A DNA stretch of 64,000 nt from Dysosmobacter sp. (GTDB lineage Bacteria > Bacillota > Clostridia > Oscillospirales > Oscillospiraceae): NCBI GenBank assembly GCA_022778785.1, contig JALFSO010000033.1:49291-113290 (forward strand). Direction: 5' to 3'. The first letter of the stretch is position 1. Each line of letters opens with the position of its first letter. Positions 10,745-42,809 of the stretch are shown here, in pieces. The position numbers and the translations under genes were made by a program. The notes below the pieces were generated by a model. It had not been told where the DNA came from, made no database searches, and worked only from the letters and a program-made list of their open reading frames with translations.

Positions 10745-10828
10745 CACAAAATCAAGTCCTTTACGTATAATATAGGACAAATAATACAATAAGGATTCTA
10801 AAACCGGGCGTTTCAGAGCAGCGGGGAG

Positions 10829-11065
10829 AAAAAAACACTCCCGTCCCATTGCTTTGGGACGAGAGCGTGACGCTTCGTGGTGCCACCCAAATTCAAGAGG
10901 ACCTGGTCCTCTCCTTTCGGCCATCCTGTTACGGGGAGGGTGCCGTGAGCGTTTCCGCCCCCGCTCCGCCGCTGTCCTTCACCCAAGCCCCTCCGGGGAC
11001 GCTTTCAGCGGTGCGTCCCTCTCTGTACGGCAGGCTGTGGGTTACTGCTGCGGCTTCTGCACGGT
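10829..11065 (-). ncRNA. T-box riboswitch leader, Asp (GAC) specifier
   Basis: On the minus strand the leader shows stem I elements AGTAA (E-loop) and AGAGAGGGACG, then GCTGAAAGC, and on the opposite side GTGAAGGACAGCGG. GAC followed by A faces the AGTAA loop inside stems CCGC/GCGG and is read as the Asp specifier. Downstream is the T-box sequence GGGTGGCACCACG (10882-10894), then a terminator stem (CGTCCC...GGGACG, 10843-10862) and a run of seven T. T-boxes sense uncharged tRNA and raise expression of aminoacylation genes. Here the next genes are two SLH genes, and aspS is third. Confidence 0.9.
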
Positions 11066-29641: not shown

Positions 29642-31465
29642 TTACTTGTTGACGCCCACGGCCTTGCCGTCCTGGCGGGGATCGGCGGTGCCGTACAGGG
29701 TGCCGTCCTCCAGGAACTCGATGGCCTGGACGGAGCCGGACGCCGCGGTGGTGATGTCGCCGTGGCCCATTTCCACCAGCTTGGCCAGCGTCTCGTCGGT
29801 GACGGCGTAATCCTCATAGCCCTTCAGGGCGTTCTCGTACTGCAGGTTGTTAGCACCGCCGTTGTTCCAGATCTTGGGAATGGAAATGGCGTCGTGCAGG
29901 GGGATGTTGTGGTCGATGACGCGGCTGATGACCTGCGCCACAGAGGCGAAGATCCGGGCGCCGCCGGGCGTACCCAGGACCATGAAGGGAGAGCCGTCCT
30001 CATTCAGGACCACCGTGGGGCTCATGGAGGACAGCGGCTTCTTGCCGGGCTCCACCTTGTTGACGGACTCGGGGTTGGTGGAGAAGTCGTCCATCTGGTT
30101 GTTCATCATGAAGCCGTAGTCGCCCACCATCACGCCGCTGCCGAAGTAGTAGTTGATGGTCTTGGTGATGGCCACGCAGTTGCCGTCCACGTCCGCCACG
30201 GAGTAGTGGGTGGTGTCGGTGTGCTCATACAGGGTGGGATCGCCGCAGTAGAACTCCTGGGCCTGGTCCAGATCGATGAGGGCGGCCCGCTCCTTGGCGT
30301 ACTCCTTGCTGGTCAGACCGGTCAGAGGCACATCGGGGACGAAATTGGTATCGGCCATGTACTGGGCGCGGTCCGCATAGGACAGCTTGAAGGCCTCGGC
30401 AAACAGGTGGATGTACTCGGGGGAGTTGACCTCCAGACTGCCCACGTCAAAGTTCTCCAGGATGTTCAGGATCTCGATGAGGTGGGTGCCGCCGGAGGAG
30501 GGAGGCGGAGAGGAGATGATCTTGTAGCCCCGGTAGGTGCTGGTGACAGGCTCATGGACCTGGACCTCGTAGTTGGCCAGATCCTCCAGGGTCATGACGC
30601 CGCCGTACTTCTGGATGGTCTGCACCAGAGCTTCGGCGACCTCACCCTTGTAGAAGCCGTCACGGCCCTCGTCCACGATCTTCTGCAGGGCCTTGGCCAG
30701 ACCGGGATTGGTGATGACGTCGCCCTCCTCATAGGGCAGACCGTTCTCATCCCAGTAGACGGACTGCATCTCGGGGAACTGCACAGCCTTGTCGTAGGCG
30801 TCAGCGATGGCGTTGGCGCAGTACCGGGAGACGGTGAAGCCCTCGGTGGCGATGCGGATGGCGGGGCTGATGACCTCCTCGCGGGTCATGGTACCGTAGT
30901 TCTCCAGCAGGTACAGCAGACCGGCCACCTCACCGGGCACACCGGAGGCCAGACCGCCGGTGACAGTGGAGCCGTTGCTCTTGCCCTCAGCGTCCAGATA
31001 CAGGTCCAGGGTCGCGGCGGCGGGAGCCACTTCGCGGAAGTCGATGAAGTAGTCCTGGCCGCCGGCGGTATGGATGGTGCAAAGACCGCCGCCGCCCAGA
31101 CCGGAGGTGAAGGGCTCACACACGCCCAGGGCAAAGCCCATGGCCACGGCGGCGTCCACGGCGTTGCCGCCCTTTTCCATGATCTCGGCGCCTACCTGGG
31201 AGACCTCGTACTTGGAGGCGCTGGCCATGGCCTGGGTGGCGGTGGCGTCACGGCCGGTGGTGATGCGGTTTCCGTCGGCATCGACGGTCTCAAAGCCCTC
31301 CACGGAATAGGCGGGGACCTTCTCCGGCTCCTCGCTGGAGGCGGAGGAGGAAGCGGCGGCAGCAGCAGAGGAAGAAGCGGCGGGGGTTTCTTTCTGTCCG
31401 CAGGCCGCCAGGGACAGCGTCATAGCGCCGGCAAGCAAAAGGGCACACAGTTTCTTGAACCTCAT
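29642..31465 (-). CDS. ggt: Gamma-glutamyltransferase lipoprotein, copy 2
   Basis: About 607 residues. MRFKKLCALLLAGAMTLSLA with lipobox LAAC anchors it outside the membrane; a Ser/Ala-rich linker follows. It is a full Ntn-type GGT: the small subunit begins at the threonine of TTHYSVADVDGN (autocleavage site), with GLGGGGLCTIH and SPTVVLNEDGSPFMVLGTPG downstream. Such enzymes hydrolyse or transfer gamma-glutamyl groups of glutathione or gamma-linked polymers. It is the last gene of the second island operon, paralogous to copy 1 at 34965. Start has AAAGGAG upstream. Confidence 0.93.
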   Translation of the reverse strand: MRFKKLCALLLAGAMTLSLAACGQKETPAASSSAAAAASSSASSEEPEKVPAYSVEGFETVDADGNRITTGRDATATQAMASASKYEVSQVGAEIMEKGGNAVDAAVAMGFALGVCEPFTSGLGGGGLCTIHTAGGQDYFIDFREVAPAAATLDLYLDAEGKSNGSTVTGGLASGVPGEVAGLLYLLENYGTMTREEVISPAIRIATEGFTVSRYCANAIADAYDKAVQFPEMQSVYWDENGLPYEEGDVITNPGLAKALQKIVDEGRDGFYKGEVAEALVQTIQKYGGVMTLEDLANYEVQVHEPVTSTYRGYKIISSPPPSSGGTHLIEILNILENFDVGSLEVNSPEYIHLFAEAFKLSYADRAQYMADTNFVPDVPLTGLTSKEYAKERAALIDLDQAQEFYCGDPTLYEHTDTTHYSVADVDGNCVAITKTINYYFGSGVMVGDYGFMMNNQMDDFSTNPESVNKVEPGKKPLSSMSPTVVLNEDGSPFMVLGTPGGARIFASVAQVISRVIDHNIPLHDAISIPKIWNNGGANNLQYENALKGYEDYAVTDETLAKLVEMGHGDITTAASGSVQAIEFLEDGTLYGTADPRQDGKAVGVNK

Positions 31466-31511
31466 TCGGTTTCTCCTTTCTGTCGTTGACGGGTGCATAA
31501 TGGATAAAAGA

Positions 31512-31540
31512 GAGGGGCGGCGCAGGGGACGCCGCCCCTC
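31512..31540 (-). terminator. Intercistronic hairpin between deacylase and ggt copy 2
   Basis: GAGGGGCGGCG pairs with CGCCGCCCCTC around a short loop; on the minus strand CTCTTTTATCC follows. It may act as a partial terminator or a stabilising stem before ggt copy 2. Confidence 0.55.
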
Positions 31541-31572
31541 GGACCACCAGTTTCAGCGGTCTGAAGATTTGA

Positions 31573-32721
31573 TCACATCAGGAAGCTGCCCAGACGGGCG
31601 CCGCCCAGCTCATCAGGATCGGCTTCCAGGAACAGCTCGCTGTACCCAGGGACCTCGCTGTAGACGATGGCCTTGTCGGGATTGGCGTTGTTGTAGGCGG
31701 TGACATACTCATAGATGCCCTGCAGGTGACGGCCGCAGCGCTCCTCGATGGGATGGCCGGTCTCGTCCCAGGGCACATACAGCATGCCCAGATCCTCACT
31801 GATGAGGTAGCACTCATCCTGACCGCCCAGCACCTGATCCACGGTGGTGGCGCCGCGCAGACGGCCCTGAGAGGCGTTGGCGGTCTCCATCAGGATGGCC
31901 TTGGTGTCGGTATAGTCGCCCAGCTCACGGTGGGTCAGACCGTGGAAGTTGGTGGGAGACTGCTCCAGGGACATTTCGATGCCGCTGAGCAGCAAATTGA
32001 TGCAGCCCTCGGAGGCGATCTCCATGGCGTCCTGGTGCGCCACGGTGGCGTTGATGACGGGATACTCGGGAGAGGCCTCATGCAGGTCGAAGGTGATGCC
32101 GATATCCTCGGCACGGATCAGCTCCGCCACACCGTAGGCCATCTTTTCGGTCAGGTTGCCGTCGGGACGGCCGGGATAGGCGCGGTTGATGTTGCGGGTC
32201 TCGGAGCCGGACAGCTGCTGGCCGGAGGGATAGTGGATGTACACATCGGGGTCGGGCCACTGATCCACGGGGTTGGTGGCGCGGGAGCCATAGCGGAAGG
32301 TGCGCTCGCCGCTCTTGGTCTGCAGGGTGAAATACTGCAGGTTGCCCTCGCTGGGGTCGTTGTGGGTCATGGCACTGTGGTTGGTGTAGGGGATGACGTA
32401 GACGGTGCCCTGCTCCACCACGGCGTTCTCAATGAAGGTGAAGGCGGACATGTAGCCGGAGACCTCGTTGGCGTGGGTGCCGCCCAGGATCAGGACGGAG
32501 CCGCCCTCCTTTTCGCCCTTCAGGACGTAGACGGGAGTGTCGCCGTTGGTATCCTTCAGACCGTCGAACCAGTCGGAAAGCATCTTCACCTCGGTGACGC
32601 TGGGGCCCCACTCGGGCAGGGGCAGCTCACGGGCCGCCAGGAAACTCATGCTGGTGGACACCATGACGGCCACAGCCACCACCAGGCAGATAGCGGCGGA
32701 GATATAGTTTTTCTTAGTCAT
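31573..32721 (-). CDS. Membrane-anchored zinc deacylase/peptidase, AstE-AspA/M14-like
   Basis: 382 residues with an N-terminal signal anchor (YISAAICLVVAVAVMVSTSM). The zinc site resembles M14/succinylglutamate desuccinylase proteins: LILGGTHANEVSGYMSA gives H and E, and FDLHEASPEYPV gives the later H with a nearby E. It probably hydrolyses an amide of an acidic amino acid outside the membrane. Known phage and Bacillus poly-gamma-glutamate hydrolases are zinc carboxypeptidase-like too, which fits the island, but this protein is not shown to be one. A related lipoprotein is at 38696. Ribosome site GAGGAGG; start 13 bases after the small gene stop. Confidence 0.72.
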   Translation of the reverse strand: MTKKNYISAAICLVVAVAVMVSTSMSFLAARELPLPEWGPSVTEVKMLSDWFDGLKDTNGDTPVYVLKGEKEGGSVLILGGTHANEVSGYMSAFTFIENAVVEQGTVYVIPYTNHSAMTHNDPSEGNLQYFTLQTKSGERTFRYGSRATNPVDQWPDPDVYIHYPSGQQLSGSETRNINRAYPGRPDGNLTEKMAYGVAELIRAEDIGITFDLHEASPEYPVINATVAHQDAMEIASEGCINLLLSGIEMSLEQSPTNFHGLTHRELGDYTDTKAILMETANASQGRLRGATTVDQVLGGQDECYLISEDLGMLYVPWDETGHPIEERCGRHLQGIYEYVTAYNNANPDKAIVYSEVPGYSELFLEADPDELGGARLGSFLM

Positions 32722-32734
32722 TATCCAGCCCTCC

Positions 32735-32881
32735 TCACTTGATCATCAGGGCGCGCAGGACCAGGGGAATCAGGACCAGGGCACAGTTCATCTGCATGGT
32801 GAGCTTCTTCTCTGTGAACATGTTCCAGCCCACCAGAGCGATGACGTAGACAACGATCAGTCGATAGATAATAGTAATCAT
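32735..32881 (-). CDS. 48-residue membrane protein in the gamma-glutamyl island
   Basis: ATG at 32881 with GGAAGGAG seven bases upstream, TGA at 32735-32737. It begins MITIIYRLIVVYVIALVGWN and ends LVLIPLVLRALMIK, which gives one membrane helix, a short polar link (TEKKLTMQMN) and a second helix. It lies 17 bases after the permease stop and 13 bases before the deacylase start, in a tight operon with its own ribosome site, so I consider it real. It might be a small subunit of the permease; that is inference from position and topology. Confidence 0.7.
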   Translation of the reverse strand: MITIIYRLIVVYVIALVGWNMFTEKKLTMQMNCALVLIPLVLRALMIK

Positions 32882-32898
32882 CTTTTTGCTCCTTCCGT

Positions 32899-34173
32899 TT
32901 AACCGAGAATGATGAAGGGCTCAAGGACGTTGGCAAACACAATGAAGAGAATGGCCCAGACGATGACGATCAGGCAGGGCACCAGGCACTTCTTCAGCAC
33001 GGGAGTGTACTTCTCCATGCCAACGACCTGGGCGGCAAAGATGCCGGCCAGAGCGGTGGGGGGCATCATATCGCCCAGAGAGGCGATCAGGGACAGGGCA
33101 GCGGCCACAATGATCTCCTCCTTGGCCAGGAAGGACAGCAGGAAGGGCACGCCCAGCACGCTGGCGGAGCCGAAGGAAGACACGGCGCCGAACAGAGGCA
33201 TGGACACGGCCATGGCGATGTAGCGGCCCCACTCGGGCAGGCTCAGGCAGCTGGTGACGATCAGACCACGGACGCCGGTGAGGGTCATGATCTGGATGAA
33301 CATGCCGACGCCCATCAGGATGCCCATGACGGGCAGCACACTGTTGACGGACTCCTTGGAGACCTTCAGCAGGTTGATCTTATAGCCGGTAAAGCAGCCC
33401 ACCGCGGCGGAGATCAGGAACACCAGCGGCATGCCGATGGAAAAGGAGGGGACCACCTTGGTCAGCACCATCAGAACAATGGCCAGTACCAGGGGGATGT
33501 AGACCTTCAGGCCGAACTTTTTGCGGGACTCGGTGTTCAGCTTGGACTGGACGTCCAGATAGTTCATCTTCTTGACGTACTTGTAACCGAACATCAGCAC
33601 GAACAGGGCGGCCAGCGGGAAGGTCAGCAGCGCCAGGGGCAGCTCAAATCCGCTGTAGGGGATGTCGATACCGGCGCCGATGATCATGGCGGGGATATTG
33701 GTGGGAGGAGCGATCATGCCCAGGATACCGCCCATGGCCAGAATGCAGGCGGTCTCCAATACCGGGACGCCCATCATCATCAGCACGGGAGCCATGATGG
33801 AGCCGGCGGAGAGCACGGAGGCGGTGGAGGAGCCGGTGATCATGCCGGGGAACATGATGATCAGCATGATCAGGCACAGCATCAGGGCGGGCAGCTTGTG
33901 GAACCGTTCAATGATCACGGAACAGATGGCGTCCAGCGCGCCGGATTCCTGGATGACCTTCATGAAGATCATTGCCGTGGCAATGACCAGAATGGTATCC
34001 ACATAGGAGAACATGCCCTCGACCAGGTGGCGCAGGGCGATGCCATGACCGCCCACAAGAGAACCAGCGATCGCGGAGAGCACCATGGAAATGCTGACCG
34101 GCAGCTTCGCCAGGAAGCAGCCCAGCAGGAACACGGCGACCATCGCGATGAAGGTAATCAGTTCATTAGTCAT
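32899..34173 (-). CDS. DctM-like (ion-transporter superfamily) permease
   Basis: About 424 residues, about 11-12 membrane helices. Two repeats each carry a hairpin motif: GMIAPPTNIPAMIIGAG in the first half and GDMMPPTALAGIFAAQVVG in the second, the PPT/PPA re-entrant loops of TRAP large subunits (DctM) and related carriers. Residues MITGSSTASVLSAGS and SSFGSASVLGVPFL resemble substrate or ion sites. Substrate is unknown; between two GGT genes and beside a lipoprotein, glutamate or gamma-glutamyl compounds are a fair guess. Start at 34173 with GGAGG upstream. Confidence 0.78.
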   Translation of the reverse strand: MTNELITFIAMVAVFLLGCFLAKLPVSISMVLSAIAGSLVGGHGIALRHLVEGMFSYVDTILVIATAMIFMKVIQESGALDAICSVIIERFHKLPALMLCLIMLIIMFPGMITGSSTASVLSAGSIMAPVLMMMGVPVLETACILAMGGILGMIAPPTNIPAMIIGAGIDIPYSGFELPLALLTFPLAALFVLMFGYKYVKKMNYLDVQSKLNTESRKKFGLKVYIPLVLAIVLMVLTKVVPSFSIGMPLVFLISAAVGCFTGYKINLLKVSKESVNSVLPVMGILMGVGMFIQIMTLTGVRGLIVTSCLSLPEWGRYIAMAVSMPLFGAVSSFGSASVLGVPFLLSFLAKEEIIVAAALSLIASLGDMMPPTALAGIFAAQVVGMEKYTPVLKKCLVPCLIVIVWAILFIVFANVLEPFIILG

Positions 34174-34201
34174 CAAAATACCTCCATGGTTGTTTTGATC
34201 G

Positions 34202-34230
34202 GGACGGCCGGCGCAGAGCACCGGCCGTCC
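34202..34230 (-). other. Intercistronic hairpin between lipoprotein and permease
   Basis: GGACGGCCGG pairs with CCGGCCGTCC around a nine-base loop; no T-run follows. Likely a stabilising or processing stem. Confidence 0.5.
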
Positions 34231-34252
34231 TTCCATTCAGAATCGAGCCGGA

Positions 34253-34891
34253 TTACTTGAATGCGGCGGGCAGCACGGTGGTGACGTCGCTGATGCTGTC
34301 GATGACGTCCACGGGGATGCCGGCACCGGCGCAGATATCGGTCATCAGGCCGTCGGTGTTGCCGCCGGAGACCACGATGGCGTAATCAGCCTGCTCAAAC
34401 ACGGGGGTGATGAACTTGTCGGACAGGTCGCCGCGGCGAGCCTCGCCGCCGGTGTGCATGGCGATGATGGACAGGCCGGCGTCCTTGGCGCCCTTGATCA
34501 GCTCGTCCAGACGGGCCAGCTCACCGTCGGCGTCGATACCGGCGGCGCCCAGACCCTTGGAAGAGCCGCCCACGACGACGATCAGGGTCTTGGCGTCGCC
34601 CAGATCAGCGGAGGTGGCCAGATTGTTGAGGGTGTAGTCCATGCCCAGCTTGCCCATGACAGTGCCGATCATCTGATAGTCGGCGCTCTGACCGCCGGAG
34701 GTGACCAGAGCGGGATACTCGGCGAAGGCCTCGGTCAGACCGGCGGCTTCACCGGAAGCGGAGGTGCTGGCCGCGGCGGAGGCTGCGGGCTTGGAAGCGG
34801 CCGCGGAGGAACCGGAGGAGCTGGAGCCGCAGGCGGCCAGAGAGAGCATCATAACGCCAGCCAGCAGCAGAGCAAAAATTTTCTTGGACAT
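34253..34891 (-). CDS. Small surface lipoprotein (DUF6305-like), possible binding protein
   Basis: 212 residues. MSKKIFALLLAGVMMLSLAAC is a lipoprotein signal with a long Ser/Ala linker. The folded part has alternating strands and helices: LGDAKTLIVVVGGSSKGLGA, LSIIAMHTGGEARRGDL, QADYAIVVSGGNTDGLMTDI and IPVDVIDSISDVTTV, which reads like a Rossmann-type fold. I associate the pattern with the DUF6305 group, but this is from memory. With the permease and 48-residue membrane protein downstream, it could serve as a receptor, as DctP does for TRAP systems; this is inference. Confidence 0.65.
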   Translation of the reverse strand: MSKKIFALLLAGVMMLSLAACGSSSSGSSAAASKPAASAAASTSASGEAAGLTEAFAEYPALVTSGGQSADYQMIGTVMGKLGMDYTLNNLATSADLGDAKTLIVVVGGSSKGLGAAGIDADGELARLDELIKGAKDAGLSIIAMHTGGEARRGDLSDKFITPVFEQADYAIVVSGGNTDGLMTDICAGAGIPVDVIDSISDVTTVLPAAFK

Positions 34892-34921
34892 AGTGATTGT
34901 TTCTCCTTTCGATTGTTGAGG

Positions 34922-34947
34922 AATGGGCGGCTGTGCAGCCGCCCATT
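34922..34947 (-). other. Intercistronic hairpin between ggt copy 1 and the lipoprotein gene
   Basis: AATGGGCGGCTG pairs with CAGCCGCCCATT around two bases, a very stable stem with no T-run. It ends just before the ribosome site of the lipoprotein gene. Confidence 0.55.
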
Positions 34948-34964
34948 TCCAAGAATTTTATAAC

Positions 34965-36809
34965 TTAGTAAGCCAGGCCCTTACCGTCACGGCGGGGATC
35001 GGCGCCGGCACGCAGCGTGCCGTCCTTGCAGATCTCGATGCCCTGAACGCCGCCGAAGAACAGGTTCCAGGAACCCTTGTCCTCAGTGGCATGGCCCATG
35101 GCCTCCAGCTCGGAAACAGTCTCGGCGGTGACGGGCGTGACACCGTCGGACTCGTAGCAGATCTTCTCGGAAGCGTTGTCATAGATACGCGCGATATTGA
35201 TCGCATCCTGAATATCCATGTTGTAATCGATCATACGCTGAACGACCTGCGCGATGGTCGGGAAGATACGGGTGCCGCCCGGAGTACCGATGGTCAGATA
35301 GGGAGTGCCGTCGGGATACAGGACGATGGAGGGGCTCATGGAGCTCAGCGGGCGCTTGCCGCCTTCCACGCAGTTGACGGACTGGGGATTGGTGGAGAAG
35401 TCCGCCATCTCGTCGTTCATGATGAAGCCGTAGCCGTCGATGGCGACCTTGCTGCCGTAGAAGTCATTGATGGTCTGCGTGCAGGCGACCATGTTGCCCC
35501 ACTGGTCGACCACGGAGAAGGAGGTGGTGGAGCCGGACTCATACAGGCCGGGATCGTCCGCCTCATAGCTACCGCTGGCGTCGGTGATCTTGGAAGCCAG
35601 CTTGGCGGCGTAGTCCTTGCTGGTCAGACCTTTCAGAGGAACGGTGGCGAAAGCGGTGTCGGCCATGTACTCGGCACGGTCGGCGAAGGCCATCTTGAAG
35701 GCCTCGGAGAAGTAGTGGATGTACTCGGGGGAGTTGATCTCGATGCCGGACATATCGAAGTTCTCAAGGATGTTGAGGATCTCGATCAGGTGGGTGCCGC
35801 CGGAAGAGGCGGGAGGCAGGGAGTAGATGGTGTAGTCACGATAGGTGGAGCTGACGGGCTCACGGACCTCGACCTTGTAGTTGGCCAGGTCGTCGGTGGT
35901 CATCACGCCGCCGTACTTGGACAGGGTCTCGACGATGGCCTCAGCGACCTCGCCCTTATAGAAGGCGTCGGCGCCGCCCTCGGCGATCATGCGGTAGGTC
36001 TTGGCCAGATCCTTGTTGGTCAGCGTGGTGCCGATCTCCAGAGGCAGACCGTTGGAGTCGAGGTAGTAATTGGCGACCTCCTCCATGTGGGCGACCTCAT
36101 AGTACTCGTCTTCCGTGCACTGTCTCATGGTCAGAGTGACGATGTAGCCGTTCTCGGCGAGATCGATGGCGGGCTGCATCAGCTCGGCGCGGGTCAGCTT
36201 GCCGGAGCCGAAGTTCTCCAGAGCGTACTCCAGGCCGGCGACCTCACCGGGGATACCGGCGGCCATGCCGCCCACCTGGTTCAGCTTGGAGTAATCGCCG
36301 GTGAACTCGTTGCCGTCGGCATCGACGAACTTGCCGACCTTGCCCTCGCTGTTCAGCCACATCTCGGCCGTCGCGTTGGCGGGAGCGATCTCACGGAAGT
36401 CAACGACTTTGACCTCCTTGGTTTCTGCGTCATAGATGGTCATGAAGCCGCCGCCGCCGAGGCCGGAGGTGTAGGGCTCCACAACGCCCAAGGTATAGGC
36501 CACTGCGACAGCAGCGTCAACGGCGTTGCCGCCGGCCTGCAGAATGTCGAGGCCAGCCTTGGAAGCATAGTAGCTGGAGCTGGCGACTGCGCCGTTGGTG
36601 CCAGTGGCGTCACGGTCGTCGCGCTTGGCGGTGAGATCCTCGTTGTAGGGCAGCCAGATCTCGTCGCCGGGCTCTTCCTCAGGCGTGGAAGCGGCGGGAG
36701 CGGAGCTGGCAGCAGGGCTGCTGCTGGCGGCCGGGGTGCTCTGGGTTCCGCAAGACACCAGAGACAGTGACATTGCCAGAGCCAGAACAAGCGCTAAGTA
36801 CTTTTTCAT
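34965..36809 (-). CDS. ggt: Gamma-glutamyltransferase lipoprotein, copy 1
   Basis: 614 residues. MKKYLALVLALAMSLSLVSC is a lipoprotein signal, followed by an Ala/Ser/Pro linker. The GGT fold is complete: GLGGGGFMTIYDAETKEVKV, SGGTHLIEILNILENFD, the autoprocessing threonine in GSTTSFSVVDQWGNMV, and PLSSMSPSIVLYPDGTPYLT. It would act on gamma-glutamyl substrates at the cell surface. It is the first gene of the second island operon, with a strong promoter at 36905-36934 and ribosome site AGGAGG. Copy 2 at 29642 is clearly homologous but has only moderate identity, so the duplication is old. Confidence 0.93.
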   Translation of the reverse strand: MKKYLALVLALAMSLSLVSCGTQSTPAASSSPAASSAPAASTPEEEPGDEIWLPYNEDLTAKRDDRDATGTNGAVASSSYYASKAGLDILQAGGNAVDAAVAVAYTLGVVEPYTSGLGGGGFMTIYDAETKEVKVVDFREIAPANATAEMWLNSEGKVGKFVDADGNEFTGDYSKLNQVGGMAAGIPGEVAGLEYALENFGSGKLTRAELMQPAIDLAENGYIVTLTMRQCTEDEYYEVAHMEEVANYYLDSNGLPLEIGTTLTNKDLAKTYRMIAEGGADAFYKGEVAEAIVETLSKYGGVMTTDDLANYKVEVREPVSSTYRDYTIYSLPPASSGGTHLIEILNILENFDMSGIEINSPEYIHYFSEAFKMAFADRAEYMADTAFATVPLKGLTSKDYAAKLASKITDASGSYEADDPGLYESGSTTSFSVVDQWGNMVACTQTINDFYGSKVAIDGYGFIMNDEMADFSTNPQSVNCVEGGKRPLSSMSPSIVLYPDGTPYLTIGTPGGTRIFPTIAQVVQRMIDYNMDIQDAINIARIYDNASEKICYESDGVTPVTAETVSELEAMGHATEDKGSWNLFFGGVQGIEICKDGTLRAGADPRRDGKGLAY

Positions 36810-37190
36810 GTTTTTACCTCCTATTATCCAATCTCATATTACAGTTGGCGGAGAGGCCCCGCCAATTCTGTGATGCAATCAGGCGAATACCTTCCTGCAT
36901 TTTAATTATAGAAGCTTTATGGCAGGACAGTCAATTTTTTCTCATATTTATCTTTAACAGAAAATTTACACGAAAGAGGATTCCTTTCTGCCTCGCCGTG
37001 TATAAAAACTGAAATGCACAAAAATGAGACAAAGAATCACTGAAAAATAGATAAAAATACGAATTACTTACAAATTGACCGGCCAAAACGGCGAAAGGGG
37101 AAGCAACGGCGGGTGTTTCGCCGCCCGGTCGGAAGAGGGAAAAGGCTTTGCGCCTGTTTTGAATGTTTGGCTTTTTCAGACTTCAAAAAT
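36810..37190 (-). promoter_or_regulatory. AT-rich control region upstream of ggt copy 1
   Basis: Minus-strand TTGACT (36929-36934) and TATAAT (36905-36910), 18 bases apart, give a leader of about 90 bases with a TTGGCGGGGCC/CTCCGCCAA hairpin (36845-36865). Upstream, about 36935-37075 is far more AT-rich than its neighbours and holds two TTTCAGT repeats, roughly 30 bases apart (near 37006 and 37040). It could be the binding region of the nearby response regulator. No gene seen here. Confidence 0.6.
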
Positions 37191-37230
37191 GAGAAAAATT
37201 GCCCCGCCGGAGATTTGCCTCCGGCGGGGC
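37191..37230 (-). terminator. Terminator of the pgs/two-component operon
   Basis: GCCCCGCCGGAG (37201-37212) pairs with CTCCGGCGGGGC (37219-37230); the minus strand then reads AATTTTTCTC. Confidence 0.85.
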
Positions 37231-37254
37231 GGGCTTTCCTGCGCGCTATGGTTC

Positions 37255-38670
37255 TTATGATTCCGCGGGTTCCTCAGAAAATTCCAGACAGATCCTGGTT
37301 CCCTGACCCGGATGGCTCTGGATATGGATCTCGCCGTGCATCTGCTCCACCACGTTGCGGACAAAGGCCAATCCCAGACCGCTGGACTGCCGTCCGGAGG
37401 TGCCCCGGTCCCAGATGCTCTGGAGCTGCGCTTCGTCGATGCCGGAGCCGTTGTCCTCCACGGTGAAGACCAGCCGATGTTCCCGTTCCGCGGAGCTCAC
37501 CCGCAGCCAGATCTGCGGCACGCGGTCCTGGGGCATGGCCTGGGCGGAGTTCTGGATCAGGTTCACCAGCGCCCGGGGAAACAGGAAACGGTTGGCGCAG
37601 ATCAGCGCCTGAGGCGCCTGGTTGTCCACGTGGAGATAGGCGGCGTAGTCATTCACGGAGCTTTGGGCCAGCACTACACCCACCAGCTTTTCGGTGGGGA
37701 TGGGAGACATCTGGTCCTCGTACAGGATCTCGGAGATCATGTCGCTCATCCGCTCCACCGCGTTTTCGATGTGGTCCAGATATTCCACGTCCCGCTCCCG
37801 CTGCTCCTCCTGACACTCAAGCTTCAGCACGCCCACCAGGGTCTGGGCTGCGGTCAGAGGGGATTTCAGGTCGTGGACCAGGTACTGCATCTCCTGATAG
37901 GTCCGGTTTTTCATCTCATTGAGCTGAGACTGGACCAGAATGGCCTGGTTCTGTTCCTTGAGAACACTCAGCTCCCGCAGGTTGTTCTCATCCCGCAGCA
38001 GAAGGAGTACCACCAGGGCAAAGGAGAGAAACAGGGTCATGCCCACCAGCGCCATGGTGTTGAGAATGGTATCCGCCCCCAGAACGGAGGAGGACATTTT
38101 GATATCCATGGACATCTCGCCCCGGCCCACTGGGAACCGGCTCATGACGGGCATGACGTCCAAAAACTGCAGCGCGGTCAGCACCAGGGCGATGAGACCG
38201 GCCTTTTTTACCAGCGAGACATACTGATAGTTGATCTTCCGGAACAGCAGCACGAAGGAAGAGAGCAGCATGGCCGGCAGGCCGAAGTCATAGTGAACAT
38301 CGTGGATAGCGCCGATGCCCTGATAGGTCAGTAGCAGGATCACCAGGATCAGCAGGGCGTTGACGGGCAGCGCCTTACGGCCGTTCCACCGGAATTCCAA
38401 AGCATCTCCAACGAAAAACGCGCCCACATAATGGGGGATGCCGCGGAGGGAGTTCAGGGCCACCAGCTGCAGCGCGGCGGCCATCAGATCCAGCTTTTCA
38501 CTGTTCCGCAGCGCCTTTCCGATGGAGCGCAGGACGGAGAAGTTCCGGACATTGAACAGCAGGGGCATGAAAAAACTGACGGCGATGCACAGCACGCCGA
38601 TGCACATCTCTCTGTGGTCAAGGGCGGCCAGATACAGCGTCCGCTTCTCCGGAGGGCTCTGTTTTTCCAT
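37255..38670 (-). CDS. Membrane sensor histidine kinase
   Basis: 471 residues. The first ~235 residues have about six to seven membrane helices with short loops (MCIGVLCIAVSFFMPLLFNV, VNALLILVILLLTYQGIGAI, LNTMALVGMTLFLSFALVVLLLL), then a coiled linker. The HisKA box is QEMQYLVHDLKSPLTAAQTL with the phospho-accepting His, and the ATP-binding domain has RALVNLIQNSAQAMPQD (N box), VEDNGSGIDEAQLQ (G1) and SSGLGLAFVRNVVEQM (G2). It should phosphorylate the response regulator encoded at 39517. The signal is unknown; the operon it ends suggests it senses envelope gamma-glutamyl material or a related state. Confidence 0.9.
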   Translation of the reverse strand: MEKQSPPEKRTLYLAALDHREMCIGVLCIAVSFFMPLLFNVRNFSVLRSIGKALRNSEKLDLMAAALQLVALNSLRGIPHYVGAFFVGDALEFRWNGRKALPVNALLILVILLLTYQGIGAIHDVHYDFGLPAMLLSSFVLLFRKINYQYVSLVKKAGLIALVLTALQFLDVMPVMSRFPVGRGEMSMDIKMSSSVLGADTILNTMALVGMTLFLSFALVVLLLLRDENNLRELSVLKEQNQAILVQSQLNEMKNRTYQEMQYLVHDLKSPLTAAQTLVGVLKLECQEEQRERDVEYLDHIENAVERMSDMISEILYEDQMSPIPTEKLVGVVLAQSSVNDYAAYLHVDNQAPQALICANRFLFPRALVNLIQNSAQAMPQDRVPQIWLRVSSAEREHRLVFTVEDNGSGIDEAQLQSIWDRGTSGRQSSGLGLAFVRNVVEQMHGEIHIQSHPGQGTRICLEFSEEPAES

Positions 38671-38695
38671 CCCGTCAACCCCTTTCTCCGGCCCG

Positions 38696-39505
38696 TCAGC
38701 GCAGGCCGTAGTAATTCAGCACATATTCTGTGAATTCCAACTGGTTGCGAACCCGCTGGGCCAGCGGCTCCTCCCGGTAGGTCTCCACCGTGATGACGGG
38801 GATGCCCAATTGCTCCGTCACCGTCTGGTTGATGCTTCCCGCTGGCGGCGAGCCGTACAGAGTCAGAGCGCCGGAGCACAGCAATCCCGCTTCGGAATCC
38901 AGCAGGGCGTCCAGGATCAGGTCACCGATCCCGTCCAGCGACTGGCAGATCAGGGAGTTGCCCAGGGCGTCCCGGCCACCCTGGACGGCTCGTGCCTCAT
39001 GGAGGTCCAGGACCAGATCCGGCTGCTTATCCTGGATGTCGGAAAAAATGGACCAGGCAATGCGCTGGGCGTCCCAGCCCTCTGGGTCACCGGGAAAATT
39101 CCGGTTCAGGTCCCGGTCGGATTTTGTGGTGCGCTGATCCTGCTCCGCGCCGTAGAGATTGGCGGGGCTGAGAATATAGAGCGTGCCGGCTTTCAGGGAG
39201 GCGTCCTTCAGAAGATTTCCCGCCCGCCAGCCGGCCACCTCGTCGCCGTGGACGCCGGCCACCACGTAGATCACCGGGCCGTCCTCCGCGCCCCGCAGGA
39301 CGCAGACGGTGTTCTCCTCCTCAGTTCCCTCCAGCAGGGGATATTCCTCCCGCTCTGTGTCAAAGGTCTCCTCCAGGCAGCCCTGAAAATCCTTCAGCAG
39401 CCAGGTGTCCGGCTCTCCGTCCAACCCCTGCTGTCCGCAGCCGGACAGCAGCAGACACAGTGCCAGCAGAAGGGACGCGGCGGTGATTCGGTGTCTGCGC
39501 TTCAT
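38696..39505 (-). CDS. Zinc deacylase/peptidase lipoprotein, AstE-AspA/M14-like
   Basis: About 269 residues. MKRRHRITAASLLLALCLLLSGC is a lipoprotein signal. Zinc-site elements resemble succinylglutamate desuccinylase/aspartoacylase proteins: VIYVVAGVHGDEVAGWRAGN (H and E) and PDLVLDLHEARAVQGG (second H), with RDLNRNFPGDPEGWDAQRIA, the RDxNRxFPG phrase common in this family. It likely cleaves an amide bond at the cell surface. Start at 39505 with GAGGAGG six bases upstream, 11 bases after the regulator stop. Placed between regulator and kinase genes, it may tie enzyme and signalling together. Confidence 0.78.
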   Translation of the reverse strand: MKRRHRITAASLLLALCLLLSGCGQQGLDGEPDTWLLKDFQGCLEETFDTEREEYPLLEGTEEENTVCVLRGAEDGPVIYVVAGVHGDEVAGWRAGNLLKDASLKAGTLYILSPANLYGAEQDQRTTKSDRDLNRNFPGDPEGWDAQRIAWSIFSDIQDKQPDLVLDLHEARAVQGGRDALGNSLICQSLDGIGDLILDALLDSEAGLLCSGALTLYGSPPAGSINQTVTEQLGIPVITVETYREEPLAQRVRNQLEFTEYVLNYYGLR

Positions 39506-39516
39506 CGGCGGCCTCC

Positions 39517-40164
39517 TCATTTCTTCAGACGGAATTTCTGCTTGGGACGGCCCACCTTGCCGTAGCTCTGACTGACCTCTACAAGGCCTTGGGAGACCAT
39601 GTGCTGCAAATAGCGGTAGGTGGTCTGATAGGCCAGGCCCGTGCGCTGAGAGAGGGCTTCCACCGTGAGAAATTCCTCCGTGTCCTGGAAGGCCCCCTCG
39701 ATCAGATCCAGCGTGGCGGGGCCGATGCCCTTCACCGGGGGCGCGGCGGAGGGCTTGGCCTGGGTCTTGTTCTTGAGGCGCTGGTTGCTGGACATCAGGC
39801 GGATATGCAGCCGGATGCGGCTGATGATATCCGGCACCTTGATGGGCTTCAGGGCGAAGTCGCTGGCCCCGGCCTCAATGAACCGGTTGGCCACCTCCTG
39901 GCTCTCGTCGATGGTGAAGACGATAATGGGCACCTCCGCGTCCAGCTCCCGGATCATCTGGACGCCCTTGATGCCGTTGATGCGGGGCAGGTGATAGTCG
40001 ATGAGCACCAGATTGGGGTGTTCCGTGCGGAACAGCTCCAGACCCGAGGGCACGTCCCTGGCGGACAGGGACGCCCATCCCTGAAACTGGAACACGGCCC
40101 GCAGCGCAAACAGGATCTGTTCGTCGTCATCGATCATCAGGATCTTCAGTTCACTGTCTGTCAT
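39517..40164 (-). CDS. DcuR/CitB-type response regulator
   Basis: 215 residues. Receiver domain: KILMIDDDEQILFALRAVF (acidic pair), LVLIDYHLPRINGIKGV (phospho-Asp in LIDYH), VPIIVFTIDES (conserved T) and FALKPIK (conserved K). The C-terminal half is a helix-turn-helix (FLTVEALSQRTGLAYQTTYR, then YLQHMVSQGLVEVSQSYGKV) like the DcuR/CitB/CitT group that answer to extracellular carboxylates. It is followed by a lipoprotein gene and the histidine kinase. Its ATG overlaps the pgsW stop. Confidence 0.88.
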   Translation of the reverse strand: MTDSELKILMIDDDEQILFALRAVFQFQGWASLSARDVPSGLELFRTEHPNLVLIDYHLPRINGIKGVQMIRELDAEVPIIVFTIDESQEVANRFIEAGASDFALKPIKVPDIISRIRLHIRLMSSNQRLKNKTQAKPSAAPPVKGIGPATLDLIEGAFQDTEEFLTVEALSQRTGLAYQTTYRYLQHMVSQGLVEVSQSYGKVGRPKQKFRLKK

Positions 40165-41258
40165 GGCGCATCATCCTTTCCTCTATTTTCCGGCCGTCGC
40201 CGGACCCACAGACACAGGACCAGCAGTCCGGCGGTCCCGGCCAATCCCGCGGCCAGCCATCTCCGGTCGTACCGGATGGTGCTGTAGGCCGCCGACTGAC
40301 CGATCTCCGGCCAGACCGCCGGGTCAAAGGGCATATCGTAATCGGCCATCAGCTTTTTGATATTCAGCAGATTCACCACCGGAAGGCCCCGGGACAGATA
40401 TCGCTGGACCAGCCCGCTGGACTCGTCGATCCGGACGGTGCCGGAGGGGTGCAGCACTCCCTGTCCCAGGGAGACGCCGCTCTCACCCTGTCCCAGAGAG
40501 GTCAGATTGCCTCCCACGGCCACGAAGCAGTCGATGGGCCCCTCTTGCTGGTAAAGGGCCTCCCGCCAGGCGATATTGGCGGAGAAATCCGGCTCCTCCA
40601 CCAGATCCAGTCCGTCCTCCCGCAGCCGCAGACGGACCGCGTCCGCCAGCTCCGGGTCCATGTCCGCGCCCACGTCGTGGTAGCCGCCCATGGTCACCGC
40701 GGCGCTCCGGGTGGAGATCAGCCCATCCTGTTCCAGACGGTACAGCATCTCCGGGAACGTCAGCTCCGGATTGTTGGCGCCGTAGGTGGACGCCCCCACG
40801 GAGGCGATGCACACCAGGCGGACGCCCATGCTCTCGCAGGCCGTCACCACCGCCAGATCCATACCCGGGAAGGACCCGGAGAAGCCGGCCCCCACCGTGT
40901 CGCCCGGCCGCACACCGGCCTCATACAGCATCCGCACGCACAGCGCCGCCATATCCGGCCAGGCCGTGGTGCGCTTGGCCTCCAGAGCGCCCTGGGTGGT
41001 GGTGATGCCGGAGTAGGGCAGGCCGATCATTCCGGTCTGATGCAGGTCATCCTCGCTCATGGGGATGCCCAGCTCCGACTTATATCCCCGGACGGCCTCA
41101 AAGCACTTCTCCAGCCGCCGGGCGGCCTCCACCTGGGTCTCATAGTATTCCGTCCGGACCGGACGGGCGCTCTGCCGGGCCAGCGCCGCCGCGGCGGTCA
41201 GCAGCAGAAGGACGGCGGCCAGCAGCGCCAGAACGCGTTTCTCCCGTTTTCTTCTCAT
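40161..41258 (-). CDS. pgsW: Poly-gamma-glutamate system protein (PgsW family)
   Basis: About 365 residues. N-terminal signal anchor (REKRVLALLAAVLLLLTAAA) and a C-terminal helix (WLAAGLAGTAGLLVLCLWV) followed by basic residues, with a large extracytoplasmic domain between. It carries AGFSGSFPGMDLAVVTACES, IASVGASTYGANNPELTFPE, GGYHDVGADMDPEL and FVAVGGNLTSLGQGESGV, phrases I recognise from the family found next to pgsB and pgsC in several anaerobes. Its biochemical role is not established. ATGA overlap with pgsC upstream and with the response regulator downstream gives a coupled operon. Confidence 0.8.
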   Translation of the reverse strand: MRRKREKRVLALLAAVLLLLTAAAALARQSARPVRTEYYETQVEAARRLEKCFEAVRGYKSELGIPMSEDDLHQTGMIGLPYSGITTTQGALEAKRTTAWPDMAALCVRMLYEAGVRPGDTVGAGFSGSFPGMDLAVVTACESMGVRLVCIASVGASTYGANNPELTFPEMLYRLEQDGLISTRSAAVTMGGYHDVGADMDPELADAVRLRLREDGLDLVEEPDFSANIAWREALYQQEGPIDCFVAVGGNLTSLGQGESGVSLGQGVLHPSGTVRIDESSGLVQRYLSRGLPVVNLLNIKKLMADYDMPFDPAVWPEIGQSAAYSTIRYDRRWLAAGLAGTAGLLVLCLWVRRRPENRGKDDAP

Positions 41259-41689
41259 GTCGGAAACACCCGCATTCCCTGCCACATCATCAGCAGCACC
41301 AGGATGCCCACCACCACGCAAAGAGACAGCATGGACTTCACCACGCCCTGCTTTTCCACCTCGTTGGCGATGATGCCGGGCACCAGCACGCCGATCATCC
41401 CCGGATCATAGGGCAGCAGCCCGGAGCGGACGATGAGGGCGTTGATGAGGAAGGACAGCAAAATCAGCACCGCGAACCGCCGCCGTCCGTACAGGATCAT
41501 CCAGCGGGACAGCACCCGGGCGACGCCCCAGGCGATGAGGGCGATGAGCAGCGTATAGACCACTCGTACCGGCGTCTGTAAGGAAAGGGCTATGTATCCG
41601 GGCACCACCAGTCCCGCCGGAGACAGTCCGGTGAACTCCGAAAACAGCAGGCTGACAGCCACGCCGGCCAGGACCACTTCATGGTACAT
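41255..41689 (-). CDS. pgsC: Poly-gamma-glutamate biosynthesis protein PgsC/CapC
   Basis: 144 residues, about five membrane helices, the usual PgsC size. It has the family start MYHEVVLAGVAVSLLFSEFT with GLSPAGLVVPGYIALSL, then VLILLSFLINALIVR and GMIGVLVPGIIANEVEKQGV, all typical of CapC/PgsC. It works with PgsB to make and move poly-gamma-glutamate through the membrane. Start at 41689 with GAGGAGG upstream; it overlaps the end of pgsB by 11 bases and the start of pgsW by ATGA. Confidence 0.92.
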   Translation of the reverse strand: MYHEVVLAGVAVSLLFSEFTGLSPAGLVVPGYIALSLQTPVRVVYTLLIALIAWGVARVLSRWMILYGRRRFAVLILLSFLINALIVRSGLLPYDPGMIGVLVPGIIANEVEKQGVVKSMLSLCVVVGILVLLMMWQGMRVFPT

Positions 41690-42809
41690 AGTCTTCCGCC
41701 TCCTCACGCACACGCTTCATCACCTGATGGCCGGGACCGGCCACGTTCCCCACCGCGAAGACCACCTGTCCGGCCGGAACCTCCGCCAGGGGCAACTGCT
41801 CCGCCCCGGAAAAGCGGCGGATGTCCGCCTGAGGGACCCTGCGCCGGACGGCGCGGGCCGTGGTCACCTGAGAGGCCCCCAGCAGCCAGACCCTGGCGGG
41901 CTGCAAGGCCCCGGCCACCATCACCATGTGTTCCGTCCGGTAGCCCCGGTCCGGCCGGTTGTTGATCAGCAGCGTCAGATCCCGTCCCTGCCAGCCGAAC
42001 CGCTCCGCCAGACGGCGGAACACCAGCTGGGTGGACTGGGGATCGTTGATGGACATGCCGTTGACAAAGATGCCGCCGCCCGGCAGACGGTGCAGGGACA
42101 GGGCGTAGGGGTCCCGCTGATAGTGGAGCATCCCCTCCAGCGCCGTGGATTCCTCCACGCCCAGATGGCGGCAGACCGCCAGCGCCAGGGCCAGATTCTC
42201 CGGAAAATCAAAATCCGGCAGGGAGCCGTCCGGCTCGGCCAGCTCCGCCTGACAGCCTATGGCTTCGGCGTTGCGGCGGAGCTGGGGATAGAAGTCCGGG
42301 TCCGCGGTAAAGAGATAGCCGTTTCTGGGAATGGTATTGGAAAGGGAGTCGCAGATCTCCTCCAGGGTCTCACCCATCTCCTCGGTGTGGTCCAGCCGCA
42401 CGTTGGTGATGACGCCCACGTCGCCTCGCACCATGCGGTGCTGGGCCACGTTCTGGAGGGCCGGGTCCACCGCCATGCACTCCAGGACCAGCACCTGGGT
42501 ACCCTCCCGGGCCGCCCGGTGAAGGATGTCGAGCTGCTCCCGGATATTGGCCCGGCCCCGCCGGATCAGCGGACGGGCCACGTTGTCCACGCCGATGGTC
42601 ATGGGGACGGTGCCGGTGGTCTTGCAGAACACTTTCCAGCCGCCGGCCCGCAGTCCGGCGTCGATGAGACGGGTCACGGTGGATTTTCCCCGGATGCCGT
42701 TGACGTGGACCACGTGCGCCAGCTTTGCCCGGTCCTTGAGGGCGCGGCGCTGCTCTAGCGCCAGCAGCGCCAGGATCACGCCCAGCAGTACGGCGACGAT
42801 CACGGCCAT
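41679..42809 (-). CDS. pgsB: Poly-gamma-glutamate synthase PgsB/CapB (Mur-ligase-like amide ligase)
   Basis: About 376 residues. An N-terminal membrane helix (MAVIVAVLLGVILALLALEQ) precedes a Mur-ligase-type P-loop VHVNGIRGKSTVTRLI. Family phrases follow: TTGTVPMTIGVDNVARPLIR, ECMAVDPALQN, ITNVRLDHTEEMGETLEEIC and VNGMSINDPQSTQLVF. It uses ATP to join glutamates through gamma-amide bonds. It is the first gene of the operon; a weak TTTACT/TAGGCT promoter with a 17-base spacer lies at about 42886-42914. No PgsA/CapA gene is in the window. Ribosome site GGGAGGGG. Confidence 0.93.
   Translation of the reverse strand: MAVIVAVLLGVILALLALEQRRALKDRAKLAHVVHVNGIRGKSTVTRLIDAGLRAGGWKVFCKTTGTVPMTIGVDNVARPLIRRGRANIREQLDILHRAAREGTQVLVLECMAVDPALQNVAQHRMVRGDVGVITNVRLDHTEEMGETLEEICDSLSNTIPRNGYLFTADPDFYPQLRRNAEAIGCQAELAEPDGSLPDFDFPENLALALAVCRHLGVEESTALEGMLHYQRDPYALSLHRLPGGGIFVNGMSINDPQSTQLVFRRLAERFGWQGRDLTLLINNRPDRGYRTEHMVMVAGALQPARVWLLGASQVTTARAVRRRVPQADIRRFSGAEQLPLAEVPAGQVVFAVGNVAGPGHQVMKRVREEAEDYVP

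Follow-up and report, generated by a model that had tools for sequence, protein, structure and literature searches.

A gene set common to many distantly related anaerobes seems to build, cut, retrieve and sense a glutamate polymer

Gene content and transcription units

The window (the whole stretch of 64,000 nucleotides that was analysed) contains an island whose 12 genes all lie on the minus strand, running from 42809 to 29642; the gene content and placement given by a first-pass annotation were recovered for 12/12 genes. The genes and accompanying features are as follows.

41679..42809, minus strand: pgsB, poly-gamma-glutamate synthase ligase, Mur-ligase-like (TIGR04012, 306 bits, cut-off 222.7)
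41255..41689, minus strand: pgsC, synthase membrane subunit (TIGR04011, 116 bits; PF14102, 107 bits)
40161..41258, minus strand: pgsW, protein with two transmembrane helices (TIGR04332, 332 bits)
39517..40164, minus strand: response regulator, receiver and IclR-like HTH (PF00072, PF09339)
38696..39520, minus strand: AstE/AspA-type zinc hydrolase lipoprotein (PF24827, 58 bits)
37255..38670, minus strand: membrane sensor histidine kinase (HisKA, HATPase_c)
37201..37230, minus strand: terminator-like hairpin 3' of the kinase gene (13 pairs, 11 G-C)
36905..36953, minus strand: conserved box AGATAAATATGAGAAAAAATTGAC and promoter (box 36953-36930 running into the -35 hexamer; TATAAT 36910-36905)
34965..36809, minus strand: ggt1, GGT-family lipoprotein (PF01019, 537 bits)
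34253..34891, minus strand: DUF6305 lipoprotein, candidate ligand-binding protein (PF19823, 168 bits)
32899..34173, minus strand: DctM-like permease, about 12 transmembrane helices (PF06808, 35 bits, cut-off 23.8)
32735..32881, minus strand: 48-residue two-helix membrane protein (no match in Pfam or NCBIfam)
31573..32721, minus strand: membrane-anchored AstE/AspA-type deacylase (PF24827, 33 bits)
31512..31540, minus strand: terminator-like hairpin in the deacylase/ggt2 gap (12 pairs, 10 G-C)
29642..31498, minus strand: ggt2, GGT-family lipoprotein, likely start 31465 (PF01019, 553 bits)

The first block has the order pgsB-pgsC-pgsW-response regulator-AstE lipoprotein-kinase, and the three ATGA overlaps described for it previously are exact (pgsC/pgsW, pgsW/regulator and regulator/AstE). 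The hairpin 37230-37201 is probably the end of this operon; the region has 20 terminator-like hairpins, and shuffled versions of it average 7.8. In the second block, ggt1 is followed by the genes for the DUF6305 lipoprotein, the DctM-like permease, the 48-residue protein and the membrane deacylase, and then by ggt2. The first-pass annotation had taken ggt2 as a sure member of the second operon, which is not borne out: the hairpin 31540-31512 separates the deacylase gene and ggt2, so that ggt2 possibly forms its own transcription unit. All parts of the island are members of known families, and a literature search found no description of this combination of them.

The synthase and the polymer-cutting enzymes

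The scores of PgsB, PgsC and PgsW all exceed the NCBI cut-offs, and the position of pgsW beside pgsB and pgsC is the arrangement of PgsBCW systems (TIGR04332). PgsW has hydrophobic helices close to both termini, its large domain is probably located outside the cell, and it perhaps stands in place of PgsA/CapA. The lack of a PgsA/CapA gene, noted earlier for this stretch, holds genome-wide: PF09587 has no match in the whole genome (95% complete) and none near pgs in other PgsW genomes. CapA as a distant partner was rejected, since it has no match in this genome and is unlinked to pgs elsewhere. Upstream (5') of pgsB, an element TTTACTTTT ... TGTGGTA is common to the window and to three other loci (L132, L133 and L134).

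GGT1 and GGT2 match PF01019 and TIGR00066, the full PF01019 domain being present and the start of the small chain aligned in both. The lid-loop insertion of 2e0w is absent from GGT1, as aligned to 2e0w and 4y23, and from GGT2. The translation of the AstE lipoprotein contains a lipobox and HxxE...DLHE motifs, while in 29 aligned sequences of the membrane deacylase H83, E86, N177, R180, H214 and E279 are invariant. These residues fit the AstE/AspA pattern, in which we take the HxxE motif and a further His to be the zinc ligands and a Glu to be catalytic, with an NxxR motif in addition. The nearest solved relatives of the membrane deacylase are DoeB-like structures (E about 1e-11). An identity with PghP (PF05908) was rejected, as none of the Pfam matches in the island is to PF05908.

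The permease and the 48-residue protein

The first-pass label of the permease as DctM-like agrees with its match to PF06808, but this match is remote, and the nearest solved structure is the TRAP DctMQ chain 9pym (E 8e-4). The family of the 48-residue protein comprises 81 distinct sequences, every one ending in P...R....[KR]. Its gene lies directly 3' of the permease gene in 76 of the 82 permease genes, and the order permease, 48-residue gene, deacylase occurs in 71/82, identical stretches being counted once (85 genes before repeats were removed; genes below 380 aa or 250 bits excluded). In the gene-order and box counts, L201, L188 and L186, which are the same contigs as L071, L073 and L085, were counted once, as were L096 and L101, largely identical loci from two genomes of one genus. 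Because the gene order is strict, we infer that the 48-residue protein is a small helper subunit of the permease. Beside the permease, 78 distinct stretches carry a GGT only (40), a C69-type peptidase only (23), both (3) or neither (12), the C69 and foldase labels coming from a scan of cluster representatives only. The two enzyme types are thus mostly alternatives to one another next to this cassette, a pattern that fits breakdown of the polymer better than its anchoring.

Distribution of the cassette and its link to PgsW

Among 398 genomes from the phylum, 26 have PgsW and 23 have the permease subfamily. At E<=1e-60, 23/23 genomes bearing the subfamily also have PgsW, and it was found in 0 of the 372 PgsW-less genomes of this draw. 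The best permease score in the 23 PgsW-less genomes that are positive for DUF6305 was 32 bits, against 277-568. In a check of 65 genomes, the deacylase subfamily scored 557-600 bits in 4 of the 6 that have PgsW; the highest score in the 59 without PgsW was 49 bits. The first-pass annotation had named a second operon widespread without pgs genes as grounds for refuting its reading; this check did not refute it, the permease subfamily (398 genomes) and the deacylase subfamily (65 genomes) each being found only in PgsW genomes. The permease is present at 28 of the 36 named PgsW loci with more than 9 kb on both sides. Clostridia and Halanaerobium share the set, as do MAGs labelled Gemmatimonadota, Kosmotogales, Spirochaetaceae and Bacteroidetes; Fusibacter paucivorans DSM 12116 and Pseudoflavonifractor phocaeensis An901 are two strains that have it.

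Counting against a recycling arm of the polymer system, 8 of these 36 loci are without the permease, which is wholly absent from 3/26 PgsW genomes, and extra cassettes lie away from pgs in some PgsW genomes. In several genomes two to four copies of the permease were counted, some of them at a distance from pgs; these numbers are lower bounds, as at most four candidates were scored per genome in the 398-genome search, and separate scoring of all candidates covered 29 genomes. With loci carrying multiple gene copies excluded and repeated loci included, distance correlations were 0.61 for PgsW-permease and 0.63 for PgsW-deacylase, both exceeding 500 permutations, compared with 0.85 for PgsW-PgsB and 0.96 for permease-deacylase. 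These values imply block inheritance of the cassette, with partial exchange against pgs.

The sensing arm and a conserved promoter box

The DUF6305 lipoprotein is modelled with alternating strands and helices (AlphaFold2 pLDDT 89) and PgsW with a pLDDT of 96. Function based on fold was rejected for both: PgsW has no PDB match at E<0.001 (Foldseek), and the sole match of DUF6305 below E 0.001 is TesA, with a TM of about 0.3. The N-terminal membrane part of the kinase is homologous to kinases of loci that have DUF6305 only, and the C-terminal region of the regulator belongs to a family common to these loci; kinase and regulator labels in the maps of the loci come from broad profiles, and the family assignment is drawn solely from profiles of these two parts. 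A DUF6305-kinase-regulator triplet of the same families occurs in 21 of the 23 PgsW-less genomes with DUF6305 (a count that includes both L096 and L101), mostly adjoining oligopeptide (opp) transporter genes. CapC was not found in 22 of these 23 genomes, so the ligand of the sensor need not be polyglutamate, and the earlier reading of DUF6305 and the two-component system as specific to the polymer is not supported.

A conserved box, AGATAAATATGAGAAAAAA, lies at the -35 region before the ggt1/DUF6305 operon here and before opp genes in PgsW-less loci (14 of 15 box targets there, again with both near-identical loci included). With up to 3 mismatches allowed, the genome gave no copy besides the one in the window. 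Outside the nine training loci, which were excluded from the box tests, the motif gave 37 upstream sites between genes, spread over 35 distinct stretches. As controls, eight column-permuted motifs gave 0-4 sites each and the reversed motif gave 17 intergenic sites in 15 loci, repeated loci still being contained in these controls. The reversed-motif sites imply that AT-rich promoter sequence accounts for part of the signal. A TATAAT-like hexamer stands at exactly offset 42 in 19/37 sites, the next best offset accounting for 11. Scored per stretch, the box and the regulator family occur together in 31, the regulator only in 24, the box only in 4 and neither in 70 (Fisher p 1e-10); the genomes are related to one another, so that neither this p-value nor the counts given here come from independent events. 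Counting against the association, the box is absent from 24 of the 55 regulator-bearing stretches.

By comparison of sequences, in which the box, the promoter spacing and the link to the regulator family agree, the box 36953-36930 is probably the site of the regulator. Since the same box precedes the ggt1/DUF6305 operon and the opp genes, the regulator probably controls the operon for cutting and import, which gives the sensing arm proposed at first pass a physical basis. No box was found before pgsB here, and among the loci only L137 has an intergenic site in that position, without a matching -10. Box control of synthesis is thus not claimed for this lineage, and the fully closed circuit suggested earlier is not supported here.

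Proposed mechanism and alternatives

We lean towards the view that the island is a gamma-polyglutamate system of the PgsBCW type with its own regulated recycling arm. Judging from their families, PgsB and PgsC, with PgsW replacing PgsA, would make and extrude gamma-linked glutamate chains. Outside the cell, the lid-less lipoprotein GGT would remove glutamate from the amino end of the chain, and the two AstE-type zinc enzymes may cut N-acyl-glutamate-like bonds in the fragments. The DUF6305 lipoprotein would bind the products, and the strict gene order points to their import by the DctM-like permease with its 48-residue helper. Because the triplet is conserved, DUF6305 and the kinase are read as ligand sensors; the regulator, acting at the candidate site in the -35 region of the ggt1 operon, would switch on cutting and import. 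Of the make-cut-import-sense reading offered at first pass, the PgsW-linked permease and deacylase and the sensing arm are retained, while the sure membership of ggt2 and the closed circuit are given up. More tentatively, and with some doubt on our part, DUF6305, the 48-residue subunit and the permease might form a dedicated three-part transporter that reimports the products of the cell's own extracellular polyglutamate. DUF6305 would then both bind these products and partner the kinase in sensing, and anaerobes of several phyla would use the polymer as a retrievable glutamate store.

An ordinary polyglutamate capsule locus, with GGTs that act like CapD in anchoring or trimming the polymer and a permease set that moves an unrelated dicarboxylate and stays nearby through co-inheritance, is unlikely. 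PgsB and PgsC are standard in such a locus, CapD of the GGT family is known from a cap operon (available part of PMC4497714), both GGTs match CapD chain 3g9k, among many other structures, and the permease is tied more closely to the deacylase than either is to PgsW. However, both subfamilies track PgsW across genomes, and the mostly exclusive occurrence of GGT and C69-type peptidases favours breakdown. We give still less credence to a module that scavenges foreign gamma-glutamyl or N-acyl amino acids or peptides, with a surface polymer only for binding or buffering: the box-bearing triplet beside opp genes in CapC-less genomes and the multiple permease copies would suit it, yet at the threshold used none of the 372 PgsW-less genomes gave the permease subfamily. 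That PgsBCW makes a different product here, for example another polyamide or only a short gamma-linked tail, is very improbable; the genome without PgsA/CapA and a PgsW without a fold match among solved structures would allow it, but PgsB and PgsC exceed equivalog cut-offs and gamma-glutamyl enzymes adjoin pgsB/pgsC.

Most discussion of bacterial gamma-polyglutamate treats it as capsule or slime material of Bacillus. The recurrence of this gene set across lineages suggests that such a polymer can serve as a store outside the cell, deliberately recovered under sensor control. To our knowledge, no role has been described for parts of the set, among them the 48-residue membrane protein; the proposal offers testable roles for DUF6305, the 48-residue family, PgsW and the DctM-like permease subfamily, and names a DNA box as the probable point of action of the two-component system.

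Comparison with known systems

In Bacillus, secreted GGT degrades gamma-PGA, and the PgsB and PgsC synthase and GGT are common to the island and to the pgs operon with PgdS and GGT (available part of PMC4497714). The island differs in having PgsW instead of PgsA, a GGT linked to pgs, and additional zinc enzymes, permease, DUF6305 and two-component system; no PgdS-type gene was recognised among its Pfam matches. The cap operon with CapD, as covered in the same part of PMC4497714, likewise combines relatives of PgsB/C with an enzyme of the GGT family in a single region, whereas the island is without CapA, gives no sign of anchoring and has extra genes for import and sensing. PghP (PF05908), a known gamma-PGA hydrolase, is a zinc enzyme related to carboxypeptidase A (also in that part of PMC4497714); the island enzymes, in contrast, match PF24827 (AstE/AspA), with DoeB-like deacetylases as nearest solved relatives. 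Compared with TRAP transporters (DctPQM), the permease is a remote DctM relative that is also adjoined by a lipoprotein and a small membrane protein, but neither DctP nor DctQ is recognisable in the island: the lipoprotein is DUF6305 and the small protein has 48 residues and 2 predicted helices. In Francisella, a gene termed 'capA, hypothetical poly-gamma-glutamate system protein' in the available part of PMC5362203 shares its wording with the name of TIGR04332, a comparison by name alone.

Organization of the Island

All genes of the island are encoded on the minus strand, on a contig of 113 kb from a draft assembly of 2.49 Mb (121 contigs, 95% complete). The first operon contains, in order, pgsB, pgsC, pgsW and the genes for a response regulator, an AstE-type lipoprotein and a histidine kinase, and its three ATGA overlaps are exactly as described in the first-pass annotation. 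Downstream are ggt1 and the genes for a DUF6305 lipoprotein, a DctM-like permease, a 48-residue membrane protein and a membrane-anchored AstE-type deacylase, with ggt2 last. Two hairpins interrupt this arrangement:

37230-37201, minus strand: terminator-like hairpin, 3' of the kinase gene
31540-31512, minus strand: terminator-like hairpin, between the deacylase gene and ggt2

The hairpin after the kinase gene probably divides the island into at least two units, and the one before ggt2 may make this gene a third. The second operon proposed earlier therefore stands from ggt1 to the deacylase, while the membership of ggt2 is uncertain.

A VTT-domain membrane protein (42964-43611, minus strand) is encoded between pgsB and a ketopantoate reductase gene and is absent from the labelled genes recurring in the island's relatives. 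Two proteins of the window (7664-9418 and 9518-10924, minus strand) match S-layer homology domains, so the cell surface may be SLH-anchored. A 675-residue reading frame (60480-62507, minus strand) has no Pfam match at E 1e-5.

PgsW and the Absence of PgsA/CapA

The suspected lack of PgsA/CapA extends to the whole genome, which has no PF09587 match. This family exceeds its cut-off in 19 of the 27 PgsW genomes but never near PgsW, the two being on separate contigs or, where the genome is a single contig (G168 and G315), more than 1 Mb apart; in genome G520 the PF09587 matches are sub-cut-off only, the nearest about 180 kb away. The hydropathy and charged ends of PgsW suggest an outside domain between two membrane helices. 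Its AlphaFold2 model is confident, and no similar solved fold was retrieved with Foldseek. PgsB and PgsC together with PgsW would make the polymer outside the cell. Of 282 named PgsW loci the best 80 were retained; among them, the closest PgsW is that of Pseudoflavonifractor phocaeensis An901 (82% identical). In four Atribacteria MAGs (L180, L184, L190 and L192), pgsW has no recognised pgsB or pgsC in the stretch examined and adjoins apparently one recurring set of other genes.

Curators have already linked PgsW to the polymer, as the name of TIGR04332 indicates, and the phrase 'poly-gamma-glutamate system protein' occurs in a passage of PMC5362203. Passages of PMC4497714 report that PgsB and PgsC co-occur in 250 bacterial species and describe PghP as a γ-PGA-cutting zinc enzyme related to carboxypeptidase A. 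A literature search covering few subscription papers found none naming DUF6305 or TIGR04332, none on pgsW together with poly-γ-glutamate, and none treating poly-γ-glutamate, γ-glutamyltransferase and a TRAP transporter jointly; succinylglutamate desuccinylase was absent from the matches listed.

Co-Occurrence across Genomes

Among 295 genomes of the order, PgsW is found in two and DUF6305 exceeds its cut-off in the same two, with sub-cut-off DUF6305 matches in two more. The second PgsW genome, G168, has all parts except the second GGT within about 11 kb. Among 398 genomes of the phylum, PgsW is found in 26 (25 over cut-off), DUF6305 in 46 and both in 23. A permease profile of 30 rows, drawn from the neighbourhoods of PgsW and DUF6305, matches 23 of the 398 at E ≤ 1e-60, all 23 with PgsW; at this threshold, the permease subfamily is confined to PgsW genomes, as expected if the second operon is not widespread without pgs genes. 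Permease scores in PgsW genomes are 277–568 bits. In a control of 29 genomes searched at E ≤ 1e-3, including 23 with DUF6305 but without PgsW, the best score outside the window's genome (G000) is 40 bits, and 32 bits in those 23, while for PgsW-less genomes beyond the control set it is established only that no match reaches E ≤ 1e-60. Three PgsW genomes have no permease match: in G473, PgsW is a 30-bit fragment; the G511 contig starts inside the deacylase and the G560 contig ends inside pgsB, so the missing permease of these two is possibly an assembly gap. The deacylase profile scores 557–600 bits in G000, G315, G520 and G511, has no match in the PgsW genomes G473 and G560, and does not exceed 49 bits in any of 59 genomes lacking PgsW. 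At the genus level PgsW occurs in 2 of 41 genomes (19 of the 41 at least 90% complete), and the island is thus patchy and may move horizontally.

Gene Order in Relatives

Gene maps cover the window together with 80 named and 61 unnamed stretches (142 in all, 138 distinct), and 82 permease genes in the distinct ones passed a length and score filter. The 48-residue gene lies directly 3' of the permease in 76 of the 82 and the deacylase then follows in 71, in agreement with the co-location anticipated from the window; immediately 5' of the permease, 65 have the DUF6305 gene and 11 a GGT gene. The 48-residue family comprises 81 distinct sequences, mostly from reading frames of 47–65 residues, all with P...R....[KR] as the C-terminal end and, for the window's protein, no Pfam or NCBIfam match. 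Among the 80 named loci (the best of 282 with PgsW), carriers of the cassette (permease, 48-residue gene, deacylase and partners) include Clostridium tetanomorphum, C. pascui, Fusibacter, Lutispora, Oscillibacter and Halanaerobium, as well as MAGs of Gemmatimonadota, Kosmotogales, Spirochaetaceae and Bacteroidetes; the loci of Atribacteria, Aminicenantes and Acidobacteriota lack it in the stretch examined. The permease is found in 28 of 36 named PgsW loci with more than 9 kb on both sides and in 24 of 44 shorter ones. Beside the permease, GGT and a secreted C69-type peptidase (labelled from one representative scanned, PF03577) mostly substitute for one another, with GGT only in 40, C69 only in 23, both in 3 and neither in 12 of 78 distinct stretches.

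A Conserved Box Upstream of ggt1

Alignment of the DNA 5' of the first ggt from eleven loci reveals one strongly conserved stretch, with the form AGATAAATATGAGAAAAAATTGAC in the window:

36953-36930, minus strand: box, extending into the -35 hexamer
36910-36905, minus strand: TATAAT, at a near-fixed distance from the box

The box is single-copy in the window, where it precedes the second operon only (100 shuffles gave no match), and in the whole genome at up to 3 mismatches (no control match). A matrix built from nine loci and scanned across all stretches finds, training loci excluded, 37 intergenic upstream sites in 35 distinct loci, 14 of them DUF6305-only (from genomes without PgsW); with repeated stretches kept, the counts are 40, 38 and 15. 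On the latter basis, reversing the motif yields 17 sites, spread over 15 loci (3 DUF6305-only), so AT-rich promoters supply part of the box signal, and eight column-permuted motifs give 0–4 sites. A TATAAT-like hexamer (4 of 6 matches or better) stands at exactly offset 42 in 19 of the 37 sites and at any other offset in at most 11. The genes 3' of these sites are ggt1 (10), DUF6305 (7), pgsB, permease and response regulator (1 each) and unlabelled (17). In DUF6305-only loci the targets are opp genes in 14 of 15 (BLASTP; repeats kept), and in L169 and L170 (C. tetanomorphum and C. pascui) the box precedes one co-directional run including pgsBCW, kinase and regulator.

Box and regulator family occur together in 31 distinct stretches, the regulator only in 24, the box only in 4 and neither in 70 (Fisher p 1e-10, which overstates independence because the loci are related). 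One box-only stretch, L110, comes from the end of a contig in G494, a genome that has its regulator on another contig (L072). The regulator most likely activates the ggt1/DUF6305 operon, for cutting and import, from a predicted site at the -35 region.

Enzymes and Transporter

Alongside gene content, order, co-occurrence and the shared box, the island has lid-less GGTs and conserved zinc-site residues. GGT1 and GGT2 are without the ten-residue insertion of 2e0w, where 4y23 aligns gap-free; 2e0w is E. coli GGT, and the insertion is its lid loop. Polymers can be within reach of lid-less GGTs. The known relatives of AstE-type enzymes cleave amide bonds adjacent to Asp or Glu and, by chemical analogy, those of the island may act on γ-Glu-Glu, an N-acyl-glutamate. 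The permease, its small partner and the lipoprotein resemble a reduced TRAP arrangement; however, DctP and DctQ are unrecognisable in the island, and the transporter is therefore not classed as TRAP. The island renders a proposed function in polyglutamate recycling directly testable.

The DUF6305-Kinase-Regulator Module

DUF6305 is followed directly by a kinase and a regulator in 21 of the 23 genomes with DUF6305 but without PgsW, and their loci contain relatives of the N-terminal membrane part of the window kinase (20 of 23) and of the C-terminal part of its regulator (22 of 23). Oligopeptide ABC transporter genes adjoin the module there; by Pfam, those of one such locus, L097, encode SBP_bac_5, two permeases and ATPases that end in oligo_HPY. 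CapC (PF14102) occurs in 25 of the 27 PgsW genomes but in 1 of these 23. With the triplet thus beside opp genes, the module extends beyond polyglutamate, and in pgs islands it is coupled to a transporter other than opp.

In L114, L126, L127 and L129, cassettes that combine deacylases and GGT with the permease and the 48-residue gene occur as paralogues in stretches without pgs genes; kinase and regulator come after the cassette in the first three. In nine loci (L159, L160, L161, L164, L165, L168, L171, L173 and L175), a gene of a PPIC-type foldase family (representative scanned) lies close to the pgs cassette.
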